Shown piece after piece: positions 7 to 38,785 of a stretch of DNA of 39,738 nucleotides; the first letter of the stretch is position 1, and each line of letters opens with the position of its first letter. Origin of the DNA: a virus. Location of the stretch: positions 1-39,738 of the IMG/VR virus record IMGVR_UViG_3300035212_000888; one strand, 5' to 3'. Below the pieces are notes generated by a model that searched no databases, had not been told where the DNA came from, and was given only the letters and a program-made list of their open reading frames with translations. The position numbers were made by a program, and so were the translations under genes.

Positions 7-534
7 TTATTGAGTTACGAGTAAAGATTCTGCGACTTCATCTAGGAGGTGCCAGTTTTGGGGGTCGCGGAAGTCCATGGCAGACGAGTTGCAGGCACGG
101 CTTAATTGTTCGCGGCGCGTGTACGTTGTGCCTTTTCGCGCGCCGATCTCTACGCGCGTAAAAAAAATAAACTCGTCAGTATCCGGCAGGTGAACGGCTA
201 GCACATCAAATGCCGTCTCAGAATACCGGGAGTTGTCCGTTTTGAGAAAGCCTACCGTATATCGGAGCTTCCCACCTATCATGACAAGTTGCGCCATGCG
301 TGTCTGGACAACGACTCCGCGGGCCTGCCAACGACGCTTGATGACGTGGTCAAAATCTTCCGCGCCGGCACTGTTTGTGGCCACAGACCAACCGCGCCGC
401 AATGCGCCAACCTCAAACAGCTTTTCACTAATGTTGCCCTTGCTGTTGCTGGATACTGAAAAGTCCATTGCCGCGTCCTCCGTCACCGGAGCGATGTCGC
501 TGTCAGGCATGGCTAAGAGCAGCGGCTGGGTCAT
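7..534 (-). CDS. PD-(D/E)XK-fold-like protein, probably non-canonical nuclease
   Basis: A 175-residue protein, last gene before the left edge. After a variable N-terminus (1-30) there is a KGNISEKLFEVGALRRGW helix, a strand with an acidic cluster (AEDFDHVI) and a strand reading VVVQTR. This order resembles the helix-D-(E/Q)xK layout of small PD-(D/E)XK proteins that normally carry QVKT, but the lysine position holds arginine here, so catalysis is uncertain. A later KTDNSRY...FDVLAVHLPDTDEFIFF segment fits the end of the same fold. The start codon (532-534) overlaps the stop of the replication initiator gene by ATGA, so the two are translationally coupled. A role in phage recombination or DNA processing is inference. 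Confidence 0.5.
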   Translation of the reverse strand: MTQPLLLAMPDSDIAPVTEDAAMDFSVSSNSKGNISEKLFEVGALRRGWSVATNSAGAEDFDHVIKRRWQARGVVVQTRMAQLVMIGGKLRYTVGFLKTDNSRYSETAFDVLAVHLPDTDEFIFFTRVEIGARKGTTYTRREQLSRACNSSAMDFRDPQNWHLLDEVAESLLVTQ

Positions 535-1364
535 GCGGCTCCTTTCATGCGGTCGGCCTGCAGGGCTTCAAGGGCGAGCATCCGGCGTTCGGCCTCGGAG
601 GGCTGAACTGGTCCGGTGCGGGGGATGTGGAGGACTTTGGGGGAATCCTTGGAGGCGTCGAGGAAGACCCCCCGCCAGCCGTGCTTCACGGATTTGCGGA
701 GGGCTTCGACGGCGTTGGCTTCGTTGACGGCGGCTAGGTCTGCGACGATGCGCTGGGCGGCGGTCGGGGTAAGCGGGGCTTTGATCTCGCGTCGGTGTTG
801 AGCGAACTCAGCCCAGGCATTGGCGAGGCCGGCGCCGTGGGGTAGGGAGATGGTGGCGGGGTCGAACTTGGGAGGCTTCGGACGCGGAACTGCTACAGGG
901 GAAGAAGATGGCGGCGAAGGCTGCGAAGCGGCCGGAGCTGGCGCGTCAGCGCTCTTATTTCGTTCCTTTATGTTCTTATATGTTGGGGTGCAGGGATTGC
1001 ACCACTTAGGTGCAGCATTTGCACCACTTGGGTGCATTTCCTGCACCCATCTCTGGGGGATAGGTGCAGCATCTGCACCCATCTCGGCGACTCCCGGGAT
1101 CGTCCAAATACTGGCTTGCAGTCCGCTGCCGGCGACCTTCCGGCTGCCCTTGGTTACCAGCACCAGCTCGCCGGACTGCTGCAGGCGGCGCAGGCAGTCA
1201 GCGACCGTGCGGCGGGCCAGCCTCGTCTTCTCCTCCAGCTTGCCCCAGCTGCCAAAGCAGTTGCCGGACTCGTCGGCAAAGTCAGCTAAGGCCAACAGGA
1301 CAAGCCGGTCGGCGCCTTCGGCCGTGCTCTTTGTCCAAACGTAATTGGTGGCGGCGACACTCAT
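531..1364 (-). CDS. replication initiator (lambda O-like, winged helix)
   Basis: A 277-residue protein. Residues about 15-90 form a winged-helix DNA-binding domain; LEEKTRLARRTVADCLRRL is the recognition-helix region. Residues about 95-130 are a Pro/Ala/Cys-rich linker encoded by an iteron array. A second Pro/Ser-rich linker (140-170) leads to a C-terminal helical domain with KSVKHGWRGVF, reminiscent of helicase-loading C-termini of phage initiators. The start at 1364 overlaps the upstream stop by ATGA; an in-frame TTG further up is less likely. With a DnaB helicase gene elsewhere in the genome and no phage polymerase, this fits theta replication started by an O-type initiator. Family assignment rests on architecture, not on a search. 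Confidence 0.65.
   Translation of the reverse strand: MSVAATNYVWTKSTAEGADRLVLLALADFADESGNCFGSWGKLEEKTRLARRTVADCLRRLQQSGELVLVTKGSRKVAGSGLQASIWTIPGVAEMGADAAPIPQRWVQEMHPSGANAAPKWCNPCTPTYKNIKERNKSADAPAPAASQPSPPSSSPVAVPRPKPPKFDPATISLPHGAGLANAWAEFAQHRREIKAPLTPTAAQRIVADLAAVNEANAVEALRKSVKHGWRGVFLDASKDSPKVLHIPRTGPVQPSEAERRMLALEALQADRMKGAA
945..1080. other. probable origin of replication: iteron array plus AT-rich stretch inside the initiator gene
   Basis: Hexamers GGTGCA at 987, 1009, 1031 and 1063 alternate with TGCACC at 998, 1020, 1042 and 1074. Each pair is 11 bp apart, and successive pairs start 22, 22 and 32 bp apart, so all sites lie on about the same helix face. Each GGTGCA-N5-TGCACC unit is a palindrome of about 17 bp. 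Immediately to the left, 945-985 is AT-rich (runs such as CTTATTTCGTTCCTTTATG). This is the same arrangement as lambda ori, where iterons and an AT-rich unwinding segment lie inside gene O. Confidence 0.65.
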
Positions 1365-3027: not shown

Positions 3028-3179
3028 GGGTTGGTCTTGGTGAAAATGCGCTGGCAGATGGCCAGCATGGCTTCGGATGGCACCAGAGGAGCGGTGCCGT
3101 AGTTGTCCTTGATGCCGGCGCGGACGTATTGCCCAACGAGGCGCCAGAAGTTCGTGTTGTCGGTTTGTCGGAGGGTCAT
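3024..3179 (-). CDS. small hypothetical protein
   Basis: 51 residues (MTLRQTDNTNFWRLVGQYV... to ...RIFTKTNP), of unknown function. It has ATGA overlaps at both ends: its start with the methyltransferase stop and its stop with the HTH gene start. That is strong evidence it is a real translated gene. The composition suggests a short helical protein; nothing more can be said. Confidence 0.6.
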   Translation of the reverse strand: MTLRQTDNTNFWRLVGQYVRAGIKDNYGTAPLVPSEAMLAICQRIFTKTNP

Positions 3180-4831
3180 GGCTGGTGTTCCGTCAGCTCG
3201 CTAACAAGAAGTCTGAATGCTCGCTCTGCGCAGGCTGGCACAACGCCGTTCCCGAGGAGTCGCAGCTCGTCGGTGCGATTGTCACAGGTGACGTACAGCT
3301 CGGCATGGTCCAGCCAATCGGCAGGCCCATCAGCGTCTCGACCCAGCGTGGATTCAATTTCCCCGTCTGCTGTCTCTCCACCATCGGCGTCAACTCCTTG
3401 TATTCCCGCTCCTCGTTGCCTCGGCCGCTCTTGTGGTCGCGGGCTGTTGGGGTGCCCCATTGCGCCTGCTCGTTCAGATTCTTCACGCCATGTCCCTTGG
3501 CTCTCATCACCGCAATCTGCTCCGGTGTCTTCGGGCCTTGAGCATCGTGGGCTTGTGGCGTTGCCCATTGCGCCGTCACTTGGTTCCCCAAGTCCGTCTT
3601 GCTGCCATCCGCTTGACCATTCGGATGATGGTCCCTGGAGCATGGCGTTGCCCATTGCTTCGTCACTTGATGCGTCAGCCCATGATGCCGCTTGTCCACG
3701 CCCATCGGCGGGTTCTGCGCTTCGCAGGCGCGCGGCGTCATCCAATTCACTTGATTCACCAGCAAGTCCCTCTCGCCGTTCGCCGTTGGATTCGTCCCGC
3801 TGTGCTTGCTGTCCTGCACCTGCGGCGTCCACCAAGTCTCCTTCGCCTGACTGCTCAACGTCCCATGACAATGCGCTCCCCGATCCGCATTCCTCGCTGC
3901 GAAGTTCGGATCGCTGTCCGGCTCGTTGGCTCTTAGCGTCAACCACAACCCTTGGCGGCTCCCATGCGAACTGCTGCTCGCCGGGGCGGCTTGGCCATGC
4001 TTGTCCCAAAACTTGACCGCATGCGTGATTGTTGCTGGAGATTTCTGATTTGCTCCAAGCGCGCTCCCGAATTGATGAGCGTCCGGCGTTGGCCAATTCG
4101 CTGAGTCCTGCATCACCGCCATTGTTGCAAGCGGAACTGAATTGCGATCCAACTGCGATTTGCCGACCGAGTTCTTCGATTCGTTGACGCTGATCGTAGG
4201 CCAATTCTTCTGCTCCTCGTTGATCGCCGCCACATGCAGCAAGTTCGTGTGGTTGCCGCCCTTGGCTTGAAATGGCGTGATGCCACCCTGCTTGCCATCC
4301 TGGCTCGTTGCGGTGGGCCAAGATGAAGACCCGCTTCCTCTGGTGAGGCGCGCCGCACTCACTCGCGCTCGCCACGCACCACGTCGCTCGGTAACCCAGT
4401 CCGACCAAGTCTTGCAGCACGTCGGATAGCCCAAGGCTGATATGTCCCTCGACGTTCTCGGCGAAACAGACACTTGGTCGCATTTCAGCAATTCCGGCTG
4501 CAATAAATGGCCAGAGGTGTCGGGGATCTTCTGCTCCGAGTCGCTTGCCGGCGGCACTAAATGGCTGGCATGGATAACCGAAAGAGCAGATGTCCACGCG
4601 GTCACGAAAGTCTGACCATGGGAAGGTTTTAAGATCCGTCCAGATAGGTGCGCAGTCCAAGAGTCCCGCTTCCATCTTTGCGACCAAGTTCGCGCAGGCG
4701 AAGGCTTCGATCTCGCTAACAGCGATTGTGCGCAGAGTTGGGATTGCTCGTCTGAGTCCAAGATCAATGCCGCCGTATCCGGCACAAAGGGAGACGTGTG
4801 TAACTGGCGAGGGAGAATCCACATGGCTCAT
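3176..4831 (-). CDS. DNA cytosine-5 methyltransferase (Dcm type)
   Basis: A 551-residue protein that would transfer a methyl group from S-adenosylmethionine to C5 of cytosine. Motif I (CAGYGGIDLGL, about 16-26) binds the cofactor. Motif IV GYPCQPFS carries the catalytic Cys (residue 88), followed by motif VI AENVEG (124-129) and motif VIII QRKRVFILA (164-172). The end has DELRLLGNGVVP (motif X). The region between about 175 and 500 is long, low-complexity and repetitive (AMGNA and LANA-like units) where the target recognition domain should lie. The opposite reading frame over the same bases also looks coding (see findings). ATGA overlaps link both ends to neighbours. Likely roles are protection from host restriction or epigenetic control; no cognate restriction enzyme is seen. 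Confidence 0.85.
   Translation of the reverse strand: MSHVDSPSPVTHVSLCAGYGGIDLGLRRAIPTLRTIAVSEIEAFACANLVAKMEAGLLDCAPIWTDLKTFPWSDFRDRVDICSFGYPCQPFSAAGKRLGAEDPRHLWPFIAAGIAEMRPSVCFAENVEGHISLGLSDVLQDLVGLGYRATWCVASASECGAPHQRKRVFILAHRNEPGWQAGWHHAISSQGRQPHELAACGGDQRGAEELAYDQRQRIEELGRQIAVGSQFSSACNNGGDAGLSELANAGRSSIRERAWSKSEISSNNHACGQVLGQAWPSRPGEQQFAWEPPRVVVDAKSQRAGQRSELRSEECGSGSALSWDVEQSGEGDLVDAAGAGQQAQRDESNGERREGLAGESSELDDAARLRSAEPADGRGQAASWADASSDEAMGNAMLQGPSSEWSSGWQQDGLGEPSDGAMGNATSPRCSRPEDTGADCGDESQGTWREESERAGAMGHPNSPRPQERPRQRGAGIQGVDADGGETADGEIESTLGRDADGPADWLDHAELYVTCDNRTDELRLLGNGVVPACAERAFRLLVSELTEHQP
3193..4325 (-). other. alternative reading frame within the methyltransferase gene that also looks protein-coding
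   Basis: Reading one base out of phase with the methyltransferase from about 4325, the minus strand stays open to a stop at 3193. It contains repeated WPTP/WATP/WGTP-x-A-x-D units (SWPTATSQD, NWPTPDAH, WATPCSRD, WATPQAHD, WGTPTARD) and ends with LNPRWVETLMGLPIGWT. I recognise such repeats and this terminal motif from C-terminal regions of other phage Dcm-type methyltransferases. A +1 shift near 4325 would fuse methyltransferase motifs I-VIII to this alternative C-terminus. Confidence 0.5.
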
Positions 4832-8872: not shown

Positions 8873-9112
8873 TTAAGCTGTCTCTGCTTCCAGCTCCCGG
8901 TCCAGCGCCGTGTCAAAGCACGCCACCTTGTCCATGAGCTTTCCCTCGCCGTTCTCAAAGTCCTCGACGATCTTGACCATCTCAGCCTCGTCCATCTTGC
9001 GTGGGTTGTAAAACACGTTGAGATCCTGCACCGGGATTTGCTCCCAGCCCTCTGGGCCAGCGTCCTGATCAGTCACCAAAACGTGGTCATATTTCGGGTT
9101 GAAATTGCTCAT
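8873..9112 (-). CDS. small acidic late protein
   Basis: 79 residues, acidic (MDEAEMVKIVEDFENGEG...). The N-terminus NPKYDHVLVTDQDAGPEGWEQ resembles a short strand-turn segment. Unknown function. Start in an ATGA overlap with the giant polyvalent gene, so translated after it as the last late gene. Confidence 0.55.
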   Translation of the reverse strand: MSNFNPKYDHVLVTDQDAGPEGWEQIPVQDLNVFYNPRKMDEAEMVKIVEDFENGEGKLMDKVACFDTALDRELEAETA

Positions 9113-12100
9113 TTGAGGATCAACGGAATTTTACTCTTTTTCATCGTTCCCGCAACAGTTTCCTTCGTCCCGCCGCGGACCTTTGGATTTGGGTGATTCT
9201 TGGCGTAATCGGGGAACAGCTTTAGTGGATCGGCTGGCGCGTTAAGGATAAAGCTGTCCGCATTCTCCGGTCCCAGCATTACCCAATCGTAGGACGGATG
9301 CGGCCGGAATGTGCCAGAGGCCAGCAACTGATCGCGCAGCAGCCGTTCGTTGGCGCTCATCTTAGATTCTTCTTTGGCGTTCTTGCCGAAGTAAACCGCA
9401 AATGCATCGGCATCCTTTGAGAGTTGCACTACGCCGACTACGTCGAGGTTCTTGCCGTTCACAAAGTCCATGGAGTCATTCAGCATCGCCTTCACGTCCG
9501 GTGCAAATGGGATGCCGGTGATGCGGTCCATTGCCGCCCCGCGCTGCTTGAAGGAAAACCTTGCCGCCTCGTCCACAAACTTGGTGTTTCGGTATTTCGA
9601 CGACATCGCGCTGTACCAGGGCTCGTTGCGATATTTTGAGACAAGCGAGCCAAACTCTCCTTGAAACTCCTTCATGCGCCCGCGCGTTGAATGGCTCTTG
9701 AGAGGACTCAGCCGCGAAAGAAATTCAGCCATTGGGCGATACTTGGCAAACGTGGCGTTGTATTGCTTTTCCGCTTCGGCTAGTTCCGAGAGTTCCGCTT
9801 CTTTTTTAAGCACTTCTTTTGATAAGCGCTCAACTCGGGAGTAAGCCTGATTGATCCTGCCCTGCGGATTAATCGCACCAAGCTCAAGGAGCACATGCAA
9901 GAAGTCAGCCTGGTCGTCCGACATGCTGGCGCGCCGCGCGTCGATCTCGGCGGTCACATCCATGACGAACTTGCGGTTACTGCGGTGCGCGTTCTCCTTC
10001 ATGATCTGGATCAGCGCATGGCCGGCCGTTGTGTTTTTGACGATGTTTTTGGCGCGCGTGACGAAGCCGCTGTTCATGTTCGCCCACACCGGCTTGTAGC
10101 CTCGACCATCGGGAAGATAGACGACCGTCTGGTTGTTTATTAGGAAAGGATGCAGCGGGCCGCCCATGTTGTCGCCGCGCGTGTTGTGCCGGTCGGCCTC
10201 AAGCATTGCCACTTGCTCGCCGCTGATGCTGTCAATGCCAGCCACGCGAGGCTGCATGGTTGTCCTTGGGTCAACGTGATATTCCAGCACGCGCCCATCA
10301 GCCGTGGGCTTGGTGCCGATTATGTAGAAGCCACGATCAGGAACCTGCGGCGGCAGCGTGTAGTTGTCATCATGAACCACATCCGGCATCGCCTGCCCGC
10401 GCGCAGGCGTCCTGATGACAACTTGGTCATCGTTGAAAAACGCGCGCAGAGTGCTTTGGGGGTCAACAGGGAAGATTGCGTCATGACCGAGCGACTTGAG
10501 CCTGCGGACATCTTCCGGGCTAGGATCAATCAGCAAGTCTTGATCGCTGGTGTAATATGGGTTGCTTGCCCTGGCAGCCACATCGTACACGCGGCCGTCA
10601 TCGCGCAGGTCCGCATAGTATTCCGCGCCGGCTTCATCCGTTGAAATGTAGATGACGCCGTCCTTGCCGTCTTTTTGACGAGACCAAGGAGATGAAGCCT
10701 TCAGCCTCTGGATGCCTTTGGGTCCGCCGTGGAAGCCTTTTATGGGGTAATCCACGTCCGGCATGAACAACGCCTGCCCAGCCTTCTGGATACCGTCGCG
10801 CATCTGCGGGGTGATGTTGACGCGCCAGATCTTAGTTTGCTCTTTGGGCGGGTTTTCCCTGACGATGTATCCTTGGCCCGCTTTTTTTGCGGCAGCTTTT
10901 GCCTTGTCCATCGTTTCAAAGGCAGTGATTGCCCTGTTGTCTGGACCGACAACGTCAAACCGAAGGTCATCAAGCGGACCCAAAACCGTGATGCCAGATT
11001 TCTCCACCTGCGCACCCCACTGCTTCACATACTTGGCGACATCTTTTAGAACAATCTGATCGTAGAACCCTTCCATGCCCTTGCCGCCGATGGTCAGCGC
11101 GCTGCCCGAGAATCGCATCTTCTCTTGCTTGCCCTCAATGGCTTTGGTTGCCATTTCTTTGCCGATTAAATCAGCCAGTTTTTCTTGACCGACAGCACCA
11201 GAGTCAATGACCCGCTTCTCGCCTTTGTATCCGAAAACGTAATAGGACTGGCCGTCCTTGTCCTTGGTCACCTCAACGGCATCTAGATTGTCGGCGATCT
11301 GCTTGTCATACCGCGCCGCCTGCGTCTCCCCAGTCGTCCACCCAATCCATTCCTTGCCGTCCGCCACGGCGTCACGCAGGGCGCGCTTGAAGAGCTGCAG
11401 CGGCCAGCTTGTGCGGAAGGGGGCGTCGGGGACGCCGCCAGCAAGGGCGTCTCGTTGTCTAAGCAGGTCGCTCAGTTCTTGCTGCTCGCTTTTCGTGATT
11501 CCCCGCGAAGATTCTTTGCGGACAAGTTCGTTCAAGCGGTTTTTATTTAAGTCCTCACGATATCCCTTCTCCCGCCCCTGCTGATGCCTATCCGACTGCA
11601 GCTCCTCAATAAAAAGCCCCTGCTTGCCCTTGGCGTCCACCCGCTCGTTTAGGCGCATGTGGGCGATGTAGTTGGGAACATCTTGAAAGTGTGACGACAT
11701 CCATTCTTTTGGTCGCATCCCCATCGCTGACTCAATGGCCGCAATCTGGCTTTCTGATGCTGCGCGCTCCGTTGGCGAATCAGACGCATTAAACTTAATT
11801 GTTGCCTCTCGAAGTGCTTGTTTGAGGGTTTCTTTTGGAGGAATCGCCAGCACCACCTCGCGGTAGTTCTCGCCGCCGTCGAGCTGCCATTGAGCGTATT
11901 GGGTCTGGTTGCCGGTATTGTTGGCATCGCTGCCTAGCTGCTGGTCTTCGTATTCCAGCACGGCGCGCTCATACGCCGAAAAGTCTCTGCTTCTCTGCGC
12001 CTCTCTCTCAAGCTGGTCAATGTCGGCTTGCGTCCACTGCTTCTTGGCACCGCCCATCGTCACCTCCTCAAGTCTCACAGCCCCATCCTCAGCCAGATAC

Positions 12101-15100
12101 CTGAGCAACGCCTCCTTCGGCACCTTGCCGTTGTTCTCCTTGGCCAACCGCTCGACCTCCTGCATCACGCCGGTCCACTTCAGCTCCTCGGCCTTGATGC
12201 CGTTTTGCGGGTTGGTGAGGATAGCTTTGATCTGGTCAACGGTCGCCGCCTTGCCCTGCACCTTGGCGTCGAGGGCTTGGGAGGACTTGAGGTAGAATGG
12301 CGGGGCTTCCGAAATGTCCGGCATCGCCTGCCCGCGGGCAGCGGCGGGCTGCGAAATCCTCGCGCCATCGTAAACCGGATGCTCCTTGCCACGAATGCTA
12401 ATACGCCCGACCTCGTTGCCAAGCGACAGCTCTCCGCGCGCGGTTGGCCGCAGTCTAGGCTCGCTCGGCCTGTCCGAGTAGCGCGCCAGATCAACGCCGC
12501 CCTCAAAGTCGGCGCGCAGTGCGTACACATGTTGCCCGCCACCCTCAACCGACACGATGGTTGATGTCGCCGGCGCGTTGTCTGATATCCACTTCCACCC
12601 AGCCTTTTGCTTGAAGAGGTTTGTGCGGTATGTACGGCCAGACTTGGCGGGTTGCGCTGCGGGATCGCCGTCAACAAACAGCCGCGGCTTTCCAGACGAC
12701 ACGTCGATAAAGCCAGCGCCGTACGAGCGCCCGGTCAAATCATCGCCGCTCTGCGCGTCAAAGAATTTGCCGCCGCGCTCGTAGGACTCGATGGGGAAGC
12801 GCGCAAAAAATGGAGGCGGCTGCGCAAAGCGCGACTGGCGATTGGGCTCCTGGCCGGTTCCAGTGAATCGCTCAGGAACGACAGCAACATCCGGCATCGC
12901 CATGCCAGTCTGCGGGAGGGCGCTGGGCATGCGGTTGTTGTTCTCCTTGTCGTAGTCGAAGAAGTATCCGGTGCGGCCGGTGGGCTTGGCATCGTTGAGC
13001 CGGTCCACGCGCCAAGTGCGAAGGCTGCCCCTAGGGTTCAGCTCTGCGTAAAGGGGATTAGCCGCACGCTGCACAGCCGTGCCAGTGCCAATAAGTCCAT
13101 TGAGAATGTCTCGTTTGGCTTGACCGATGCCAGCCTCGCCGGGGCGACCTTCGCGGTGATTGGCCAGACGAATCTTTAGATCAGTCTCAACCTGCCTCAT
13201 GTCGTTGTTGAAGATACTCAGTTCGCCGCGGTTAATCGCCTTCATGGTCGCCGCGCGGAAGGCATTTAGGTCAATGGCCACAGCCAGCAGGTGGTTGGCC
13301 TTGGTCACCTGCCAGCCGAGCGGCACGGTCTCGCGCTGGATCGCGCGCACGTTGCCCAGGTTGGTCACACGGTAGCGTCCCGAGGCTCCGGTGCCGATGG
13401 CGTTGTAGTCGATGTCCCAGCTGCCGCCCTCAGCGCGGCTTTGCTCCATGGAGCGGGCAAACTCGCGGACGTGCTTGGGGAAGTTGGTGAAGAAGTCAAA
13501 CTGCGGCGGCAGCACCGGCCCGCCGACCACCTCGCGGCCGTTGACCTTACGCTTGCCGAACTCCTGCGAGTTGACCGGGACAAACTTGCGCGCATCGTAG
13601 AGCGTCTTGATCTGTGCGCTGCGGGCGTTCTCGGTCGCCGTGATGATCTTCTGCGGCTTGAGGCTGTAGGTGCCGTCTGGCTTTTGGAACAGGAAGTCAT
13701 TCTCTAGGACGCCGCGGCCCTCATCGCGCAGCTTCACATGCGTGCTCCGGGCTAAGTCTTCCGGCTTGCTGCTGCGGGCCAGCTCCACGCCGCGCAGCTC
13801 CTTCGCTCCGGCTTCCTCGAGGCCGGCGAGGTATTGGTCGTAGCTGCGAACGTATTCACGCACCCGCTTCTGCATGATGCGGTCTTGGAAAAGCGGATTG
13901 TCGCGGAAGAGCACCGAGGGGTTGTCCATCAGCTTGCCGGTGCCCGGGTCAAGGCGTGCGCCCATGACCTCCAGCACGCGCCCGCCGGCCGACAGCATGG
14001 ACTCGGCGAGGCGAGGGAACATGGCGTCACGGCGGATGGCCCGGAAGTCGATGGCCGGAGCCTCCGAGGCAAACGTCTCGGCAACGATCTCGTCGCGCGC
14101 CCAGTCTAAGGCGTCCTCGCCCTTGTCGATGCTGCGCTGGCGGAACTCCTCGACGCGCTCGTTAATCAGCCGGTCGCGCTCGGCGGGGTCTTTGGCTCGG
14201 TCGGCCACGATGTTGTCCATCGTCTTGCCGCCGTCCATTGCCTTCATCTCGGCATCGGTCAAAACTGTCGGTGCCTCGCCGGTCACGCCTTGGCGAAGGT
14301 CGGCGTCCACCATGCGGGCGATGTACTCGCGGCCGCGCGATTCAACGCCCCCGGGGCCGTACTGCTGGTTGACTAGGTTGCGCAGGTCGTTACGCGGCTG
14401 GCCGTCCAAGATGTTGCTGGTCAGGATGGCGTGTCCGATCTCATGCGGGGCGATGGCTTCGGTCGCTGTCTTGCCGTCCAAGTTGATGAAAACGCGCGCC
14501 CGGTTGTTGGCGTCCCGGTCAAGGAACACACCGGCCGTGGCCTCGCCGCCGTTCTGCGCGATGTCCGCGTTCATCCGGTACTCGTCGCCGGTCAGCGGAA
14601 CGAAATCGACCTTGCCGGCCAGCACGCCCTGCATGGCAGACAGGCGGTCCAGCGTGGCGTGCGGCAACCGCGCGAAGGCTTCGACGTTGCCGCCGACCGC
14701 CTGGACATCGGCAAACATCCGGGCGATGTCTGCGTCCGCCGCCGTGCCTGCCCGCCGGGCCACACCGCCAGCCAAGCCGCCCACACCGCCCAGTGCCAAG
14801 ATCCCGCCCATGACCTCACCCGCGCGCTCGGCGTCGGGTTGCAATGCGGCGAAGGGCGAGCCTACAATGCCTGCCGTCACGGCGCCGCTCACTGCGTCAT
14901 CCGCGGCTCTGGCAACCTGCGTTGCACCCATCCGGTCGGCAAATCTAGCCCCACGGCGAAGTGCCTCCGGGTTGCCAGAGTCCTGCGCGACACGCTTGAG
15001 GGTGCTGTCGGTGCCGTCAACGTATCCGGTGAAAAACTTGCGGTAGCGCTCCGGCACCGCGGCGTTGCCTGCCAGGCTGCTCGCTGCCTCTGCGCGGGCC

Positions 15101-16362
15101 ACGCCCAGGCCGCCAACGCCAGCCTCGCGCACGATGGTCGCCGCGCCGCCGGCCGCAGAGCCGACCTTGCGCAGCAGCCCGCCGCCGTAGTGCAGTGCAG
15201 GCATCACGGCACCCGCCATGAGGACCGCCTTGGTGATGCCGCCGCCGCCATCGGTCGCGCTGTCCACATAGACCGCCGTCCCGGCCACGCCTGCGCCCAG
15301 TGCCGCCTGCTGCTTTTGGGTCAGCCCGGTGATGTCCTGCAGCCGCGTCGAGATGCCCAACTCAACACGCTCGGCAACATCAGCCAGACCGCTGGCCACG
15401 CGCTCGGCGCCCAGCATTGGCTTTTCGGAAAGATTGGCGATGCGGCGTAGTACCCGGGCCTTACTCAGTGCACCGGCACCCAGAGGCAGGGCGTTGAGCG
15501 GATCAACGACCATGCTGCCCAGCGTCGAGATGGTCGGCATCGGCTGCTCATCGGTGATCTGGTAAGTTCCCGCGGAGGTCGGCACCGACATCTGGCCCTC
15601 GCCGGTCTTGAACTCGGAGACGTTGGCGAAGTCGCGCTCCAGCGCCTTCTCGCGCACATACCGCTCGTAAGCCTTGCCCTTGTCTTCGCGGGCTTGGTCT
15701 AGGGTCGGCGTGTAGGCTCCGGCCTCGCGCGCTTCAGCGAGTGCCGCCTGGTAGATCTGCTCGTCCTGCTCGCGGTCTCCGGTCACCTTGCCGTCAGCAA
15801 TTAGGCGGTCCATGATCCCGGCGTTGATCGCCTCGGCGCGCTTGCTTCCAGTGGCGAGGTCATCGACCTTGCTGCCCACCCAGTCAAAGAGCTGCACCAA
15901 GTTGATGCCGCCCTTGCGGATGATCTCCGCGCCGGTCTGCACGTTGCGCTGCACTTGGTTGACCGGGTCGGTCACCATACCCACCATCGCGCCCTGCAGC
16001 TCGCGGCCGGTCTCCGGGACCATGCCGATCAGTCCCGCGGCACCTTGTCCTAGCCCCTCAAAGAAGCGGCCGACCTCGCGGTCCTCCTTGTCGCGCCGGT
16101 CCCAGTACTGGTCAAACTCCTGCGGCGTCATGACGTAGTCCATGCGCCGGTAGTTCTCCTCCTCGAGTTGGTTGAGTTGGAACTCGGACAGCGCAACAGG
16201 CTCCTCCGGCTCCGGTGCCGGGGCTGGCTGCGGATTCATCCGCTGGGCGAATGGTGTGTACGCAATGGCGCCGGCGTTCTGGCCACTGACCAGCCCGGAC
16301 TCCTGCAGCTCTAAATCTGCAAGCTGTTGGTCGGTCAGACCGTCTATCGCTTCTTGTACCAT
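9109..16362 (-). CDS. giant polyvalent/internal virion protein with metallopeptidase and ADP-ribosyltransferase-like regions
   Basis: About 2417 residues from ATG 16362, which has GGGAG 10 bases upstream; a GTG at 16386 is also possible. Glycine-rich hydrophobic stretches near 350-420 and 510-540 could interact with membranes. Residues about 640-644 read HEIGH with a downstream DEIVAETFAS, a zinc metallopeptidase signature. Around 1585 is EELQSDRHQQGR, a motif of phage polyvalent proteins. About 1710-1790 holds LTIGGKGMEGFYDQI. About 1870-1985 (KGFHGGPKGI...VIYISTDEAGAEYYAD...YDVAARASNPY) resembles ART-PolyVal ADP-ribosyltransferases. The motif MPD(V/I) recurs near 1155, 1346, 1866 and 1991 at apparent domain borders. 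It is encoded after three internal-virion-type genes, so it is probably packaged and ejected into the host. Confidence 0.75.
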   Translation of the reverse strand: MVQEAIDGLTDQQLADLELQESGLVSGQNAGAIAYTPFAQRMNPQPAPAPEPEEPVALSEFQLNQLEEENYRRMDYVMTPQEFDQYWDRRDKEDREVGRFFEGLGQGAAGLIGMVPETGRELQGAMVGMVTDPVNQVQRNVQTGAEIIRKGGINLVQLFDWVGSKVDDLATGSKRAEAINAGIMDRLIADGKVTGDREQDEQIYQAALAEAREAGAYTPTLDQAREDKGKAYERYVREKALERDFANVSEFKTGEGQMSVPTSAGTYQITDEQPMPTISTLGSMVVDPLNALPLGAGALSKARVLRRIANLSEKPMLGAERVASGLADVAERVELGISTRLQDITGLTQKQQAALGAGVAGTAVYVDSATDGGGGITKAVLMAGAVMPALHYGGGLLRKVGSAAGGAATIVREAGVGGLGVARAEAASSLAGNAAVPERYRKFFTGYVDGTDSTLKRVAQDSGNPEALRRGARFADRMGATQVARAADDAVSGAVTAGIVGSPFAALQPDAERAGEVMGGILALGGVGGLAGGVARRAGTAADADIARMFADVQAVGGNVEAFARLPHATLDRLSAMQGVLAGKVDFVPLTGDEYRMNADIAQNGGEATAGVFLDRDANNRARVFINLDGKTATEAIAPHEIGHAILTSNILDGQPRNDLRNLVNQQYGPGGVESRGREYIARMVDADLRQGVTGEAPTVLTDAEMKAMDGGKTMDNIVADRAKDPAERDRLINERVEEFRQRSIDKGEDALDWARDEIVAETFASEAPAIDFRAIRRDAMFPRLAESMLSAGGRVLEVMGARLDPGTGKLMDNPSVLFRDNPLFQDRIMQKRVREYVRSYDQYLAGLEEAGAKELRGVELARSSKPEDLARSTHVKLRDEGRGVLENDFLFQKPDGTYSLKPQKIITATENARSAQIKTLYDARKFVPVNSQEFGKRKVNGREVVGGPVLPPQFDFFTNFPKHVREFARSMEQSRAEGGSWDIDYNAIGTGASGRYRVTNLGNVRAIQRETVPLGWQVTKANHLLAVAIDLNAFRAATMKAINRGELSIFNNDMRQVETDLKIRLANHREGRPGEAGIGQAKRDILNGLIGTGTAVQRAANPLYAELNPRGSLRTWRVDRLNDAKPTGRTGYFFDYDKENNNRMPSALPQTGMAMPDVAVVPERFTGTGQEPNRQSRFAQPPPFFARFPIESYERGGKFFDAQSGDDLTGRSYGAGFIDVSSGKPRLFVDGDPAAQPAKSGRTYRTNLFKQKAGWKWISDNAPATSTIVSVEGGGQHVYALRADFEGGVDLARYSDRPSEPRLRPTARGELSLGNEVGRISIRGKEHPVYDGARISQPAAARGQAMPDISEAPPFYLKSSQALDAKVQGKAATVDQIKAILTNPQNGIKAEELKWTGVMQEVERLAKENNGKVPKEALLRYLAEDGAVRLEEVTMGGAKKQWTQADIDQLEREAQRSRDFSAYERAVLEYEDQQLGSDANNTGNQTQYAQWQLDGGENYREVVLAIPPKETLKQALREATIKFNASDSPTERAASESQIAAIESAMGMRPKEWMSSHFQDVPNYIAHMRLNERVDAKGKQGLFIEELQSDRHQQGREKGYREDLNKNRLNELVRKESSRGITKSEQQELSDLLRQRDALAGGVPDAPFRTSWPLQLFKRALRDAVADGKEWIGWTTGETQAARYDKQIADNLDAVEVTKDKDGQSYYVFGYKGEKRVIDSGAVGQEKLADLIGKEMATKAIEGKQEKMRFSGSALTIGGKGMEGFYDQIVLKDVAKYVKQWGAQVEKSGITVLGPLDDLRFDVVGPDNRAITAFETMDKAKAAAKKAGQGYIVRENPPKEQTKIWRVNITPQMRDGIQKAGQALFMPDVDYPIKGFHGGPKGIQRLKASSPWSRQKDGKDGVIYISTDEAGAEYYADLRDDGRVYDVAARASNPYYTSDQDLLIDPSPEDVRRLKSLGHDAIFPVDPQSTLRAFFNDDQVVIRTPARGQAMPDVVHDDNYTLPPQVPDRGFYIIGTKPTADGRVLEYHVDPRTTMQPRVAGIDSISGEQVAMLEADRHNTRGDNMGGPLHPFLINNQTVVYLPDGRGYKPVWANMNSGFVTRAKNIVKNTTAGHALIQIMKENAHRSNRKFVMDVTAEIDARRASMSDDQADFLHVLLELGAINPQGRINQAYSRVERLSKEVLKKEAELSELAEAEKQYNATFAKYRPMAEFLSRLSPLKSHSTRGRMKEFQGEFGSLVSKYRNEPWYSAMSSKYRNTKFVDEAARFSFKQRGAAMDRITGIPFAPDVKAMLNDSMDFVNGKNLDVVGVVQLSKDADAFAVYFGKNAKEESKMSANERLLRDQLLASGTFRPHPSYDWVMLGPENADSFILNAPADPLKLFPDYAKNHPNPKVRGGTKETVAGTMKKSKIPLILK

Positions 16363-17267
16363 TTTCCGTCGTCTCCCTTTTCCCACATGATTCCACTAAT
16401 GGTTTTGGTCGGACGCGGGGCCGCTGCTGTGGCGGCCGGCGCGGACGGTTGTTGGACAATCTCGCCGCTCGTAGCGCGCTTCTCGGCCCTGTCGAGGACG
16501 GACATAAAGTCATTCATCGACTTCTTGAAGCCCTCTTCGCTCTGCGACTGCTGCGCGCGGACGATGGCTTGCGTAGCCTTCTCGCCCTCAACCTGGGTGA
16601 TCTGACCGCCGCCCTTGAGACTTTCAAACGCCTGCAAGAACGCGCCGCCCTGCACCTGGTCGAGGAGAGCCTTAAAGTCAGCCTCCTTCGTTCCGGCAAT
16701 CGGCTCGCTTTTGAGTCCGAAGAGGTAGGCTTGGTTCTTGGCGCCGACCGAGCCGGAAAAGCCCGGGTGGGTCAGCACGTCATTGATCGTGCCGCGCATG
16801 CTGCCGATGGTGTCGAGCGTGGACTGCTGCCGCTGAACCCTTTGCGTCTTCATTGCCTCAGACTCTGTCTGAAGTCGATTCTGCTGCGCTTGGCGAACTG
16901 GGTCAGACGCCTGCACCTGCATCCTTGACTCGGCCTCCATGCGGCGGGTCATTTGCGAGGTAATAAACTGAGCGGCCGACTCCGGCGTGAACTGAACGCC
17001 GCGCTTCATTGCCTTGAGAAGCTCCTGCTGCTCCGAGGGCAACGCATCAAAGTCCTCGCGGGTCTGCACGTTGAGCGAGTTGAAGTCAAAGCCCACTCCG
17101 GTCTCCGGCAGGGGAGCCTGCGCCACGTCCTGAGCCACGGCATCGGGCACGCCGCCGTAGAGGCTGTCGGCAAAGATTGGGTCTTCGCCCGGCATCATTG
17201 GGGCGTCGAACTCGTTGAGCGGTGGGAGGTCCGGCTCGACCGGAGGTGGTAGTTGTTGCGGAGGCAT
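16344..17267 (-). CDS. putative internal virion protein
   Basis: 307 residues. Pro/Asp-rich N-terminus (1-70), then long helical, Gln-rich segments (DPVRQAQQNRLQTESEAM) and a C-terminal Ala/Pro linker ending KGDDGKWYKKR. No enzymatic motif. It overlaps the start of the giant gene by 19 bp and sits in a run of four genes shaped like podovirus ejection proteins. The role is inferred from position. Confidence 0.5.
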   Translation of the reverse strand: MPPQQLPPPVEPDLPPLNEFDAPMMPGEDPIFADSLYGGVPDAVAQDVAQAPLPETGVGFDFNSLNVQTREDFDALPSEQQELLKAMKRGVQFTPESAAQFITSQMTRRMEAESRMQVQASDPVRQAQQNRLQTESEAMKTQRVQRQQSTLDTIGSMRGTINDVLTHPGFSGSVGAKNQAYLFGLKSEPIAGTKEADFKALLDQVQGGAFLQAFESLKGGGQITQVEGEKATQAIVRAQQSQSEEGFKKSMNDFMSVLDRAEKRATSGEIVQQPSAPAATAAAPRPTKTISGIMWEKGDDGKWYKKR

Positions 17268-18957: not shown

Positions 18958-19793
18958 CGGATGAACATGGCCGTAACGAGCGGGCATGACGTGAGCTGCG
19001 ACCCGCCACCGGTAGCTGCTCTGATCACGCAAGCGTCTGCCGTCTTCACATCGGTCGATCTGGCCGTGACGATGTTGTCTTGGGCGACTGCGCTTCGGGC
19101 CGCAAGGCCGGAAAGAGCATAGTCAGCGTCTGGAAGTGCTACTGCAAAGTTGACGGCAAATTCCGCAGACGTCTCCGAGTCGTTGACCGGAGACACGCAG
19201 GCGACGTTGCCAGAGGCACGCACAGTCCTTCTGCGAAGCACCCCTTGGCCGGTTGTATCTGAGGCTTTAGGATCGCCAACGGCATTGAACCTTGTGGTTT
19301 CCGGCCCCACCGCGGTCACCGTGTAAGCCCTGTTCGTTGGGCGCTGCGCCCCGCCGTCTGAAAACTCAAGGTAGACCACATGGCCGACTCTGAGGGAGTG
19401 CGCCGTAGCTGTGGTCACAAGCACCAGCGTGCCGAGGGAATTTGTCGTGTAGTCGAAATTCAGATTGTTTGCCGATGCACCATTGATGTTCACCCACGCC
19501 CTGACCCCATAGATCGGCGCCGTGCCGGTCTGTGCACCGCTCAACTTGGCAGGAGTGACAGACGCATCGACTACGTTAGCCGTGGTCACCGTGATCGCCG
19601 CGGGCAACGCGCCGGTTGCCAGCTTGGAGAAGGCGATTGCGGCGCCGGACGAGATGTCGTCGTTGACGATACTTCCCGCGGTGAGCGCGACAACCGGGGT
19701 TTGCGCGGCGTTAAGCGTAGCAGGTGTGACGGTTTCGCCGGTGACAAATCCGGTCGGTGCGTTGTGTCCTTTTGTGACGGTAATGGTGGCCAT
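18954..19793 (-). CDS. tail fibre-like protein
   Basis: 279 residues, Thr/Ala/Val-rich and almost all beta by composition. The first 90 residues contain short repeats (VTPATLNAAQTPVVALTAG, SVTPAKLSGAQTG) like those in fibre shafts. The middle has VLVTTATAHSLRVGHVVYLE, a strand-rich knob-like segment. Follows the nozzle-like gene. Probable virion appendage; receptor-binding role is inference. Confidence 0.55.
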   Translation of the reverse strand: MATITVTKGHNAPTGFVTGETVTPATLNAAQTPVVALTAGSIVNDDISSGAAIAFSKLATGALPAAITVTTANVVDASVTPAKLSGAQTGTAPIYGVRAWVNINGASANNLNFDYTTNSLGTLVLVTTATAHSLRVGHVVYLEFSDGGAQRPTNRAYTVTAVGPETTRFNAVGDPKASDTTGQGVLRRRTVRASGNVACVSPVNDSETSAEFAVNFAVALPDADYALSGLAARSAVAQDNIVTARSTDVKTADACVIRAATGGGSQLTSCPLVTAMFIR

Positions 19794-37037: not shown

Positions 37038-37400
37038 TTAGTTTGTGGTTGGGTTTTGGTTTTGTGTTGGTACTAGAAAATCGGAGCGGCGAAGGATCGT
37101 GAGGAAGTCGGCCGCGCGGAGGGTGATCAGCCAGTCTTCTCCGGTGCGTTTGTGGGCGACGACCGGGAACAACTTGTCCTTGGCATCGCGGATTGCCTGG
37201 GCGATCCAGTCTTTGACCTTGGTGACTTGGCAGAATTTGACCTCCCAATGCACGTCAGGGAGACAGGGGCAGACGACATCGGGGGAGTCGCCGAGGCCGC
37301 TGAACTGCTGGCCGCGCCGGATACCGGAGTCACCGAATGCTTCGCGCAGTTGGTCGCGCCACATGCGTTCGCCGCGGGCGCCTTTGGCTCGGGAGTTCAT
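37038..37400 (-). CDS. PD-(D/E)XK Holliday-junction resolvase-like nuclease
   Basis: 120 residues. MNSRAKGARGERMW gives a conserved Glu11; SPDVV gives Asp41; WEVKF gives Glu53 and Lys55, together the E-D-(E)xK signature of phage PDDEXK resolvase-type nucleases. ATGA overlap with dnaB. Probably processes recombination or replication intermediates. Confidence 0.7.
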   Translation of the reverse strand: MNSRAKGARGERMWRDQLREAFGDSGIRRGQQFSGLGDSPDVVCPCLPDVHWEVKFCQVTKVKDWIAQAIRDAKDKLFPVVAHKRTGEDWLITLRAADFLTILRRSDFLVPTQNQNPTTN

Positions 37401-38785
37401 TTGTAGAAGGCCTCCTGCACTTGCCGGGATGGTGCGTAGACGGTGTCGCCGCCGTCCGCGGTGCGGCCCCCGAGGGCGGCGTCTTGAAAGCGGGTGAGGC
37501 GCGGGCGCCAGATGAGGTTGACCTTGCCGGTGGCGCCAGCGCGGTGCTTTGCGATGTGCAGCTCGGCGTCTTGGGGATCGGGCTCGGTTTCTTGATCCGC
37601 TGCGTAGTATGCGGGGCGGTGCAACAAAAGCACTAGGTCGGCGTCCTGCTCAATGCTACCGCTCTCGCGGAGGTCGGACATCTTGGGCCGGTTGTCGCTT
37701 CGGTCTTCGCTCTTGCGGTTGACTTGGGCAGCGGCGATGACCGGAACGCCGAGTTCCATGCTCATGGCTTTGAGTCCGCGGGAGACAAATCCGACTTCGT
37801 TTTCGCGGGACTGGGCTCCGACATGCGAGACGAGCTGCAGGTAGTCAACGAAGATGGCTTTGACGCCCCAGCGGCGGACGGCCAAGCGGGCGCGGCCACG
37901 GATGTCGAGCATGGTTAAGCCTCCGCGGTCATCCACATATAAGGGCTCACTAGCGAACTGGTCGGCGGCCTCGGTGATGCGCAACTTGCTGGCGTGGTCG
38001 AGGAAGCCGTTTCGGATGACTTCGATGTTGGTCTCCGCGCGCCCGAGGACAACGCGGCAGCCCAACTCGTTAGCGGGCATTTCGAGGCTGAAGTAGAGAG
38101 CAGGGACGCCGCGGCGCACCATGTTCTCGCACATGTTCAGCATGAAGGCGGATTTGCCCATCGCGGGACGGCCAGCGATGATGGTGAGCTGCCCTGGGCG
38201 CAGGCCGCCGGTCATGTAGTCAAAGGCTTTGAAGCCGGTCTCAACGCCGAGTTTTTGCCCCGGGGTCATAAGTTTTTCCAACTCGTCGAGCAAACCGGGC
38301 ACAATGGCAGACGCAGGACGCATGCTGTCGGTGCTCTGGCCAAGGCTAAGGGACAAGACTGACTCTCCGGCGTCTTGGAGCACGTTGTCGGCGGGTTGCG
38401 AGAGGTCGCTGGCGGCGGACTGCAGACGCCCGGCCGCGTTGAGGATTGCGCGGCGTGCGTGGAGGTCGCGCAATGTTTGCACATGGTACTCCACTGCGGC
38501 GGGACCACCGGCGGTGTGCGAGACCATGTCAGTGACCGCTCCGGCGCCGCCGACAAACTCAAGGCGGTCGTGGCTGGCGAGGACTTGGGTGACGGCCACA
38601 ATGTTCGGCACGCCGCCGGCCGCGCGAATGTCGCGGATGACACTGAAGACCTGCGCGTTGGCGGGCGTGAAGAAAAGGTCAGCGTTCAGACCGGCGATCT
38701 CGTCGATCATGTTTGGCTCTGACATGAGGGCTCCGAGCACTGCGGCTTCGACCTCGGGGGAGTTTGGCGTGACTTGCTTTTTCAT
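37397..38785 (-). CDS. dnaB: replicative DNA helicase, DnaB-type
   Basis: 462 residues. An N-terminal helical domain (VTPNSPEVEAAVLGALMSEP) is followed by the RecA-like motor: Walker A GRPAMGKSAFM (about 205-215), Walker B IFVDYLQLV (about 320), and a SGSIEQDADLVLLLHRP motif 4 region. It unwinds DNA at the phage origin, probably loaded by the initiator at 531-1364. No primase domain is fused, so host primase is expected. Confidence 0.85.
   Translation of the reverse strand: MKKQVTPNSPEVEAAVLGALMSEPNMIDEIAGLNADLFFTPANAQVFSVIRDIRAAGGVPNIVAVTQVLASHDRLEFVGGAGAVTDMVSHTAGGPAAVEYHVQTLRDLHARRAILNAAGRLQSAASDLSQPADNVLQDAGESVLSLSLGQSTDSMRPASAIVPGLLDELEKLMTPGQKLGVETGFKAFDYMTGGLRPGQLTIIAGRPAMGKSAFMLNMCENMVRRGVPALYFSLEMPANELGCRVVLGRAETNIEVIRNGFLDHASKLRITEAADQFASEPLYVDDRGGLTMLDIRGRARLAVRRWGVKAIFVDYLQLVSHVGAQSRENEVGFVSRGLKAMSMELGVPVIAAAQVNRKSEDRSDNRPKMSDLRESGSIEQDADLVLLLHRPAYYAADQETEPDPQDAELHIAKHRAGATGKVNLIWRPRLTRFQDAALGGRTADGGDTVYAPSRQVQEAFYK

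Follow-up and report, generated by a model that had tools for sequence, protein, structure and literature searches.

The gene at 531-1397 on the minus strand of the window, which is the whole analysed stretch of 39,738 nt and comprises an entire virus record, most probably encodes a phage replication initiator that binds dyads located within its own gene, with opening of the adjacent DNA, loading of a DnaB-like helicase and an organisation as an exchangeable cassette, a reading to which we assign a probability of about 0.86. The initiator very probably binds the array as a row of sites in its own gene, and from the sequences we infer binding, dimerisation, melting, helicase loading and origin use as follows. 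The winged helix would bind four 17-bp dyads in the linker-coding part of the gene, probably with one dimer per dyad, upon which the AT-rich DNA adjoining the array would melt, and the C-terminal domain of the initiator would help to load the DnaB-like helicase encoded by the phage itself. A lambda-like layout, with the sites inside the initiator gene, had been put forward in the original prediction and is now strongly supported by the conserved geometry of the array, the synteny of O and DnaB and the concerted switching of dyads and winged helix.

The longest open reading frame of the initiator gene begins with the GTG at 1397, and the likely start codon is the ATG at 1364 (MSVAATNY...), from which residues are counted. 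Pfam and PHROG classify the gene as HTH_36/O-like, with a match to HTH_36 of 27.8 bits against the curated cut-off of 25 (E 2.2e-6) and to PHROG 678 'replication initiation O-like' with E 1.2e-22, and both hallmarks of HTH_36-type phage replication initiators (PHROG 678 / 1032 O-like), an N-terminal winged helix and a helicase neighbour, are present. Residues 1-88 (1101-1364, minus strand) constitute the N-terminal winged-helix DNA-binding domain according to Pfam HTH_36 and AlphaFold2, the model being confident across residues 1-70 (pLDDT ~90-96), and the linker encoded by the array, residues 100-128, is predicted to be disordered (AlphaFold2, pLDDT < 50). In gene order, the winged helix is followed by the dyads, the AT-rich stretch and the conserved C-terminal domain, an in-gene iteron layout in which the repeats lie between the parts coding for the DNA-binding and the C-terminal domain with AT-rich DNA adjoining. 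The placement of the repeats within a winged-helix gene, and in the part of it that codes for a flexible linker, was thereby borne out.

The eight GGTGCA/TGCACC hexamers that the original prediction had listed are all found, at 987, 998, 1009, 1020, 1031, 1042, 1063 and 1074. The single hexamer as the iteron, and with it an array of eight direct repeats, had to be rejected since the half-sites alternate strictly in orientation, such that the repeat unit is a perfect 17-bp dyad, GGTGCA-N5-TGCACC, present four times. In gene order, these dyads are located at 1063-1079 (coded peptide GADAAP, frame 0), 1031-1047 (WVQEMHP, frame 2), 1009-1025 (GANAAP, frame 0) and 987-1003 (WCNPCT, frame 1), and together they form the array at 987-1079, the putative initiator-binding sites and origin, which lies ~290 bp inside the initiator gene. 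The start-to-start spacings are 22, 22 and 32 bp, and the 39.7-kb window holds no GGTGCA-N5-TGCACC dyad besides these four. Helical phasing of the spacings favours 10.5-11.5 bp, a preference that is only mild given the excess of spacings divisible by three. Directly past the array in gene order, the stretch at 953-986 is 71% AT compared with 40% for the window, with only 0.3% of all 35-mers as AT-rich, and is a putative unwinding element; AT-rich DNA beside the repeats had likewise been noted. An Rfam search gave no match.

Downstream, the initiator gene is adjoined by a PD-(D/E)XK endonuclease-like gene (7-534, minus strand; weak Pfam match, below cut-off), as in nearly all relatives. The DnaB-like replicative helicase is encoded at 37397-38785 (minus strand), and O and DnaB occur together in 60 of 61 relatives, with the DnaB-like helicase within 1.3-2.4 kb of the initiator. 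As the gap between initiator and DnaB amounts to 1483 nt when the contig ends are joined, and to 1428-1484 in near relatives, the record most likely represents a nearly complete genome in circularly permuted form. In otherwise unrelated relatives, DnaC-like loaders, DnaB or primase-helicases are encoded downstream of the initiator, and in the Pseudomonas phages D14E and phi2 a 'Replication P' gene is found there. After detrending, the cumulative GC skew peaks at 1833, close to the initiator gene, and reaches its minimum at 19547, just under half a genome (17.7 kb) away. The skew does not corroborate an origin, its sign being opposite to the usual and the major genes running one way. Elsewhere on the genome, two open reading frames of 551 and 543 amino acids (3176-4831 and 3193-4824, both minus strand) overlap almost fully in different frames, and given their matches to PHROGs 363 and 1008, both of phage DNA methyltransferases, the two may each be a real gene. 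The element's largest gene, 9109-16386 (minus strand, 2425 amino acids), is without any PHROG match.

An array bound by the initiator can also be mainly regulatory, in autoregulation, as a copy-number brake or as an operator, with the true origin elsewhere. Such dyads are indeed typical of operators and phage repressor operators look alike, but this reading is rendered unlikely by a site ~290 bp inside the gene with an AT-rich element adjoining, by the invariable location of the array immediately past the DNA-binding domain, in most cases ahead of a helicase or loader gene, and by known systems with a like layout, lambda O and RepA_N of pSK41, which are origins.

That the dyads belong to the initiator as its origin sites is further suggested by the relatives. 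Those whose protein is 56-77% identical frequently lack GGTGCA altogether. Close relatives without it carry an array at the same place and with the same geometry, with another sequence in every copy, such as GGTCTC-N5-GAGACC, GGTCTA-N5-TAGACC, GGTGACGCAGCGTCACC and others, and the change of the array sequence is accompanied by a changed winged helix. A loss of the array in these close relatives was rejected on the grounds of the equivalent, switched arrays in their sequences. Relatives that keep the protein and lose the repeats, named beforehand as the finding that would speak against an origin, thus exist in the literal sense for GGTGCA, but not for the array, of which an equivalent is present; the proposed comparison of the spacing among relatives revealed that the array geometry is conserved.

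With the C-terminal half of the initiator as query, this half was found joined to at least seven types of winged helix, almost every one of which has an array of its own in that location. The relative L163 illustrates such a swap, as its C-terminus and DnaB are 97% and 97.6% identical to those of the window at the amino acid level, whereas winged helix and array are unrelated. At the DNA level, identity is ~30-60% over winged helix and array and ~80-100% from just past the array; the block common to both, which holds the C-terminal domain, extends over 525-990 (minus strand; query 4011-4475, 89.3% DNA identity), and homology restarts inside the last dyad in gene order. DNA-binding domain and array can be regarded as one exchangeable specificity cassette, where recombination just past the array would bring in a new DNA-binding domain together with its matching sites and leave C-terminus and DnaB unchanged.

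The switched arrays permit a comparison of protein residues with the bases of the half-sites. Helix 3 (residues 51-64, 1173-1214, minus strand) is the putative recognition helix as judged from the model and the top covarying columns, and positions are counted in an aligned 15-residue stretch of this helix, in which R52 (codon 1209-1211, minus strand) is position 6 and D56 (codon 1197-1199, minus strand) position 10. In the AlphaFold2 model a single helical turn separates the two residues near the beginning of helix 3, and such positions are the usual base-reading positions of helices of this kind. The prediction for position 6 was written down before the scans for other motifs, and the rule for position 10 was derived from the pattern-scan sets before its test with the genome sets, of which the first had already been inspected by eye. 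With GGTGCA arrays, R is found at position 6 in 61 of 62 distinct helices and never at position 10; with GGTGAC arrays, R occupies both positions (19/19 each); GGTCTC arrays combine A or S at position 6 with R at position 10 (6/6), and the single usable helix with GGTCTA arrays has A6 and N10.

Among HTH_36 genes collected blind to the motif, R6 is associated with G at base 4 (contingency table [[17,1],[4,13]], P = 2e-5) and R10 with C at base 6 ([[14,2],[1,18]], P = 7e-7), and a fresh sample gave [[10,0],[3,17]] (P = 9.5e-6) and [[9,1],[0,20]] (P = 7e-7), respectively. A scan of 68 alignment columns ranked position 6 first for base 4, with a z of 13.4 against 5.5 for the runner-up, and position 10 first for base 6, with 11.9 against 6.8; N6 goes with A4 in 5/5 and K10 with A6 in 19/19. 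Since related genes share both residue and base, significance drops upon stricter thinning for kinship, with P values for R6 with G4 and R10 with C6 of 4.5e-5 and 2e-6 for 34 representatives, 1e-4 and 3.5e-4 for 22, and 0.002 and 0.005 for 17. The code suggested by these data would read, for position 6 and base 4, R/K to G, N to A, D to T/C and A/S to C/T, and, for position 10 and base 6, R to C and K/N to A; among the several exceptions are type B GGTGAC arrays with D at position 10 and the loci L418, L457 and L396. Through the covariation of bases with the residues at positions 6 and 10, the array is linked to the protein of the gene in which it lies.

Each dyad can also fold into a 6-bp stem with a 5-nt loop, and the dyads can then be RNA or single-strand DNA hairpins, acting in mRNA control or as a nick or primer site, instead of protein-binding sites. 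Such hairpins do not predict that base identity tracks the helix residues 6 and 10, and many copies in relatives retain the half-sites without full complementarity, for example GGTCCAAGATTTAGACC, which makes this explanation very improbable.

If the dyads are bound by the initiator, their DNA and not the encoded peptide is expected to be under selection, as had been claimed, and this claim is strongly supported by the coding of the array in three frames, the joint change of winged helix and dyads, all of them at once, and the residue-base covariation. A single gene reads its four dyads in three different frames, and at most two of the four survived in any of 20,000 synonymous recodings that encode this peptide; the probability of all hexamer bases given the protein and the codon usage is 10^-7.6. 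Across 14 distinct genes of the clade, the hexamer bases are invariant except for one gene without the first dyad, and 9/9 four-fold sites within the hexamers are invariant (mean conservation 1.0 versus 0.78-0.81 elsewhere in the gene). Non-redundant GGTGCA arrays have all dyads in a single frame, mostly as GAxxAP, in 54/88 cases, to which in-frame duplication thus contributes, and use two or more frames in 34/88. That the array arose as a side effect of protein-level selection for a repetitive linker peptide, with which the single-frame majority would agree, can practically be dismissed given that one DNA unit encodes three unrelated peptides in the window, that at least two frames are used in the 34 arrays and that synonymous sites within the hexamers are fixed.

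In-gene phage origins are textbook knowledge for lambda, and lambdoid phages possess palindromic iterons and type-specific O-ori pairs. In lambda, the iterons are located in the middle of the initiator gene beside an AT tract, with O followed by P (PMC7466680, PMC6022878). Like in lambda O, the sites of the window lie mid-gene with AT-rich DNA adjoining; unlike in lambda O, the N-terminus is of the HTH_36 type, the site sequence differs, a DnaB-like helicase is found in place of P, and a residue-base rule is readable across the relatives. In the Pfam search of the initiator only HTH_36 was above cut-off, and Phage_rep_O, the family of the lambda O N-terminus, was not matched.

The RepA_N initiator of plasmid pSK41 binds Rep boxes central in rep with its winged-helix N-terminal domain, and its central, origin-coding part is a dispensable linker followed by a conserved C-terminal domain (PMC5703833). 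The initiator of the window has weak fold matches to 4pql and 4pt7 in common with RepA_N, its Pfam search gave no match to the RepA_N domain, and, unlike in the window, the C-terminal domain of pSK41 binds DnaG primase. In PLE satellites, N-terminal domain and origin covary and swap with the C-terminal domain kept, and the specificity of origin and initiator has been tested (PMC8263062); unlike in the window, the PLE origin is intergenic. The Rep of pPR9 combines an HTH_36-like N-terminal domain with the pSK41 C-terminal domain in a natural swap of N-terminal domain and origin, and a pPR9 mini-replicon replicates and is compatible with pSK41 (PMC5703833). The recognition rule is not applicable to pPR9, whose weak match to HTH_36 (16.7 bits) falls below cut-off and whose in-gene repeats are 15-bp direct repeats. 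In-gene origins (lambda O, RepA_N) and the exchange of N-terminal domain and origin (pPR9, PLE) are thus already known. For HTH_36 initiators, neither in-gene arrays nor a recognition code were found described in the open-access papers searched, and the family-wide in-gene dyad array, the crossover at the array end and the two-position code appear to be new compared with these papers.

When viral contigs were scanned for pairs of adjacent GGTGCA dyads, at least 120 loci were obtained, and among the viral matches listed the paired dyad lies inside an HTH_36-type winged-helix open reading frame in 112/120; in the remaining ones, the frame is mostly truncated at the contig end or the array is located just past it. 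The control scan with a scrambled hexamer of the same composition gave 7 loci, none of them within winged-helix frames. These control loci resemble repressor operators: L593, L594, L596 and L598 carry GTAGCG-N5-CGCTAC dyad pairs with a further copy ~710 bp off, which probably flank a phage repressor gene as operators. In cellular genomes, the paired GGTGCA dyad is in winged-helix genes in 17/119 loci and mostly elsewhere, a scan not counted as evidence as it is dominated by dispersed repeats of Thiobacillus and Gallionella. In these genera (e.g. L185, L190, L199, L206 and L210), many paired GGTGCA-N5-TGCACC dyads occur outside HTH_36 genes, with a start spacing of mostly 31 or 26 bp.

When HTH_36 genes of at least 180 amino acids were drawn from prokaryote genomes regardless of motif, as top-scoring matches and not as a population sample, 37/66 of the first and 32/39 of the fresh set had an array (69/105 in total); arrays were called against 20 shuffles each, a number low enough that a few may be chance. 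It is likely that HTH_36 initiators family-wide write their own sites in-gene, with a short code predicting origin specificity for phages as well as prophages from several bacterial phyla. If such a code holds, each HTH_36 initiator gene represents a matched pair of protein and site, and one protein family offers many initiators with target sites readable from the same gene, by which winged-helix specificity, the co-evolution of initiator and origin, the compatibility of co-resident phages and the mechanism of cassette exchange become directly testable in small laboratory replicons. Reading the array can also serve as a quick locator of origins in uncharacterised phages. The arrays of the Pseudomonas phages D14E, Riah and phi2 are degenerate, and the automatic call was not above shuffles for them. 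The HTH_36 gene of Vibrio phage H20 (L587, 1201-2169) has linker repeats ENGTLNRP, seemingly a direct-repeat array of another kind.
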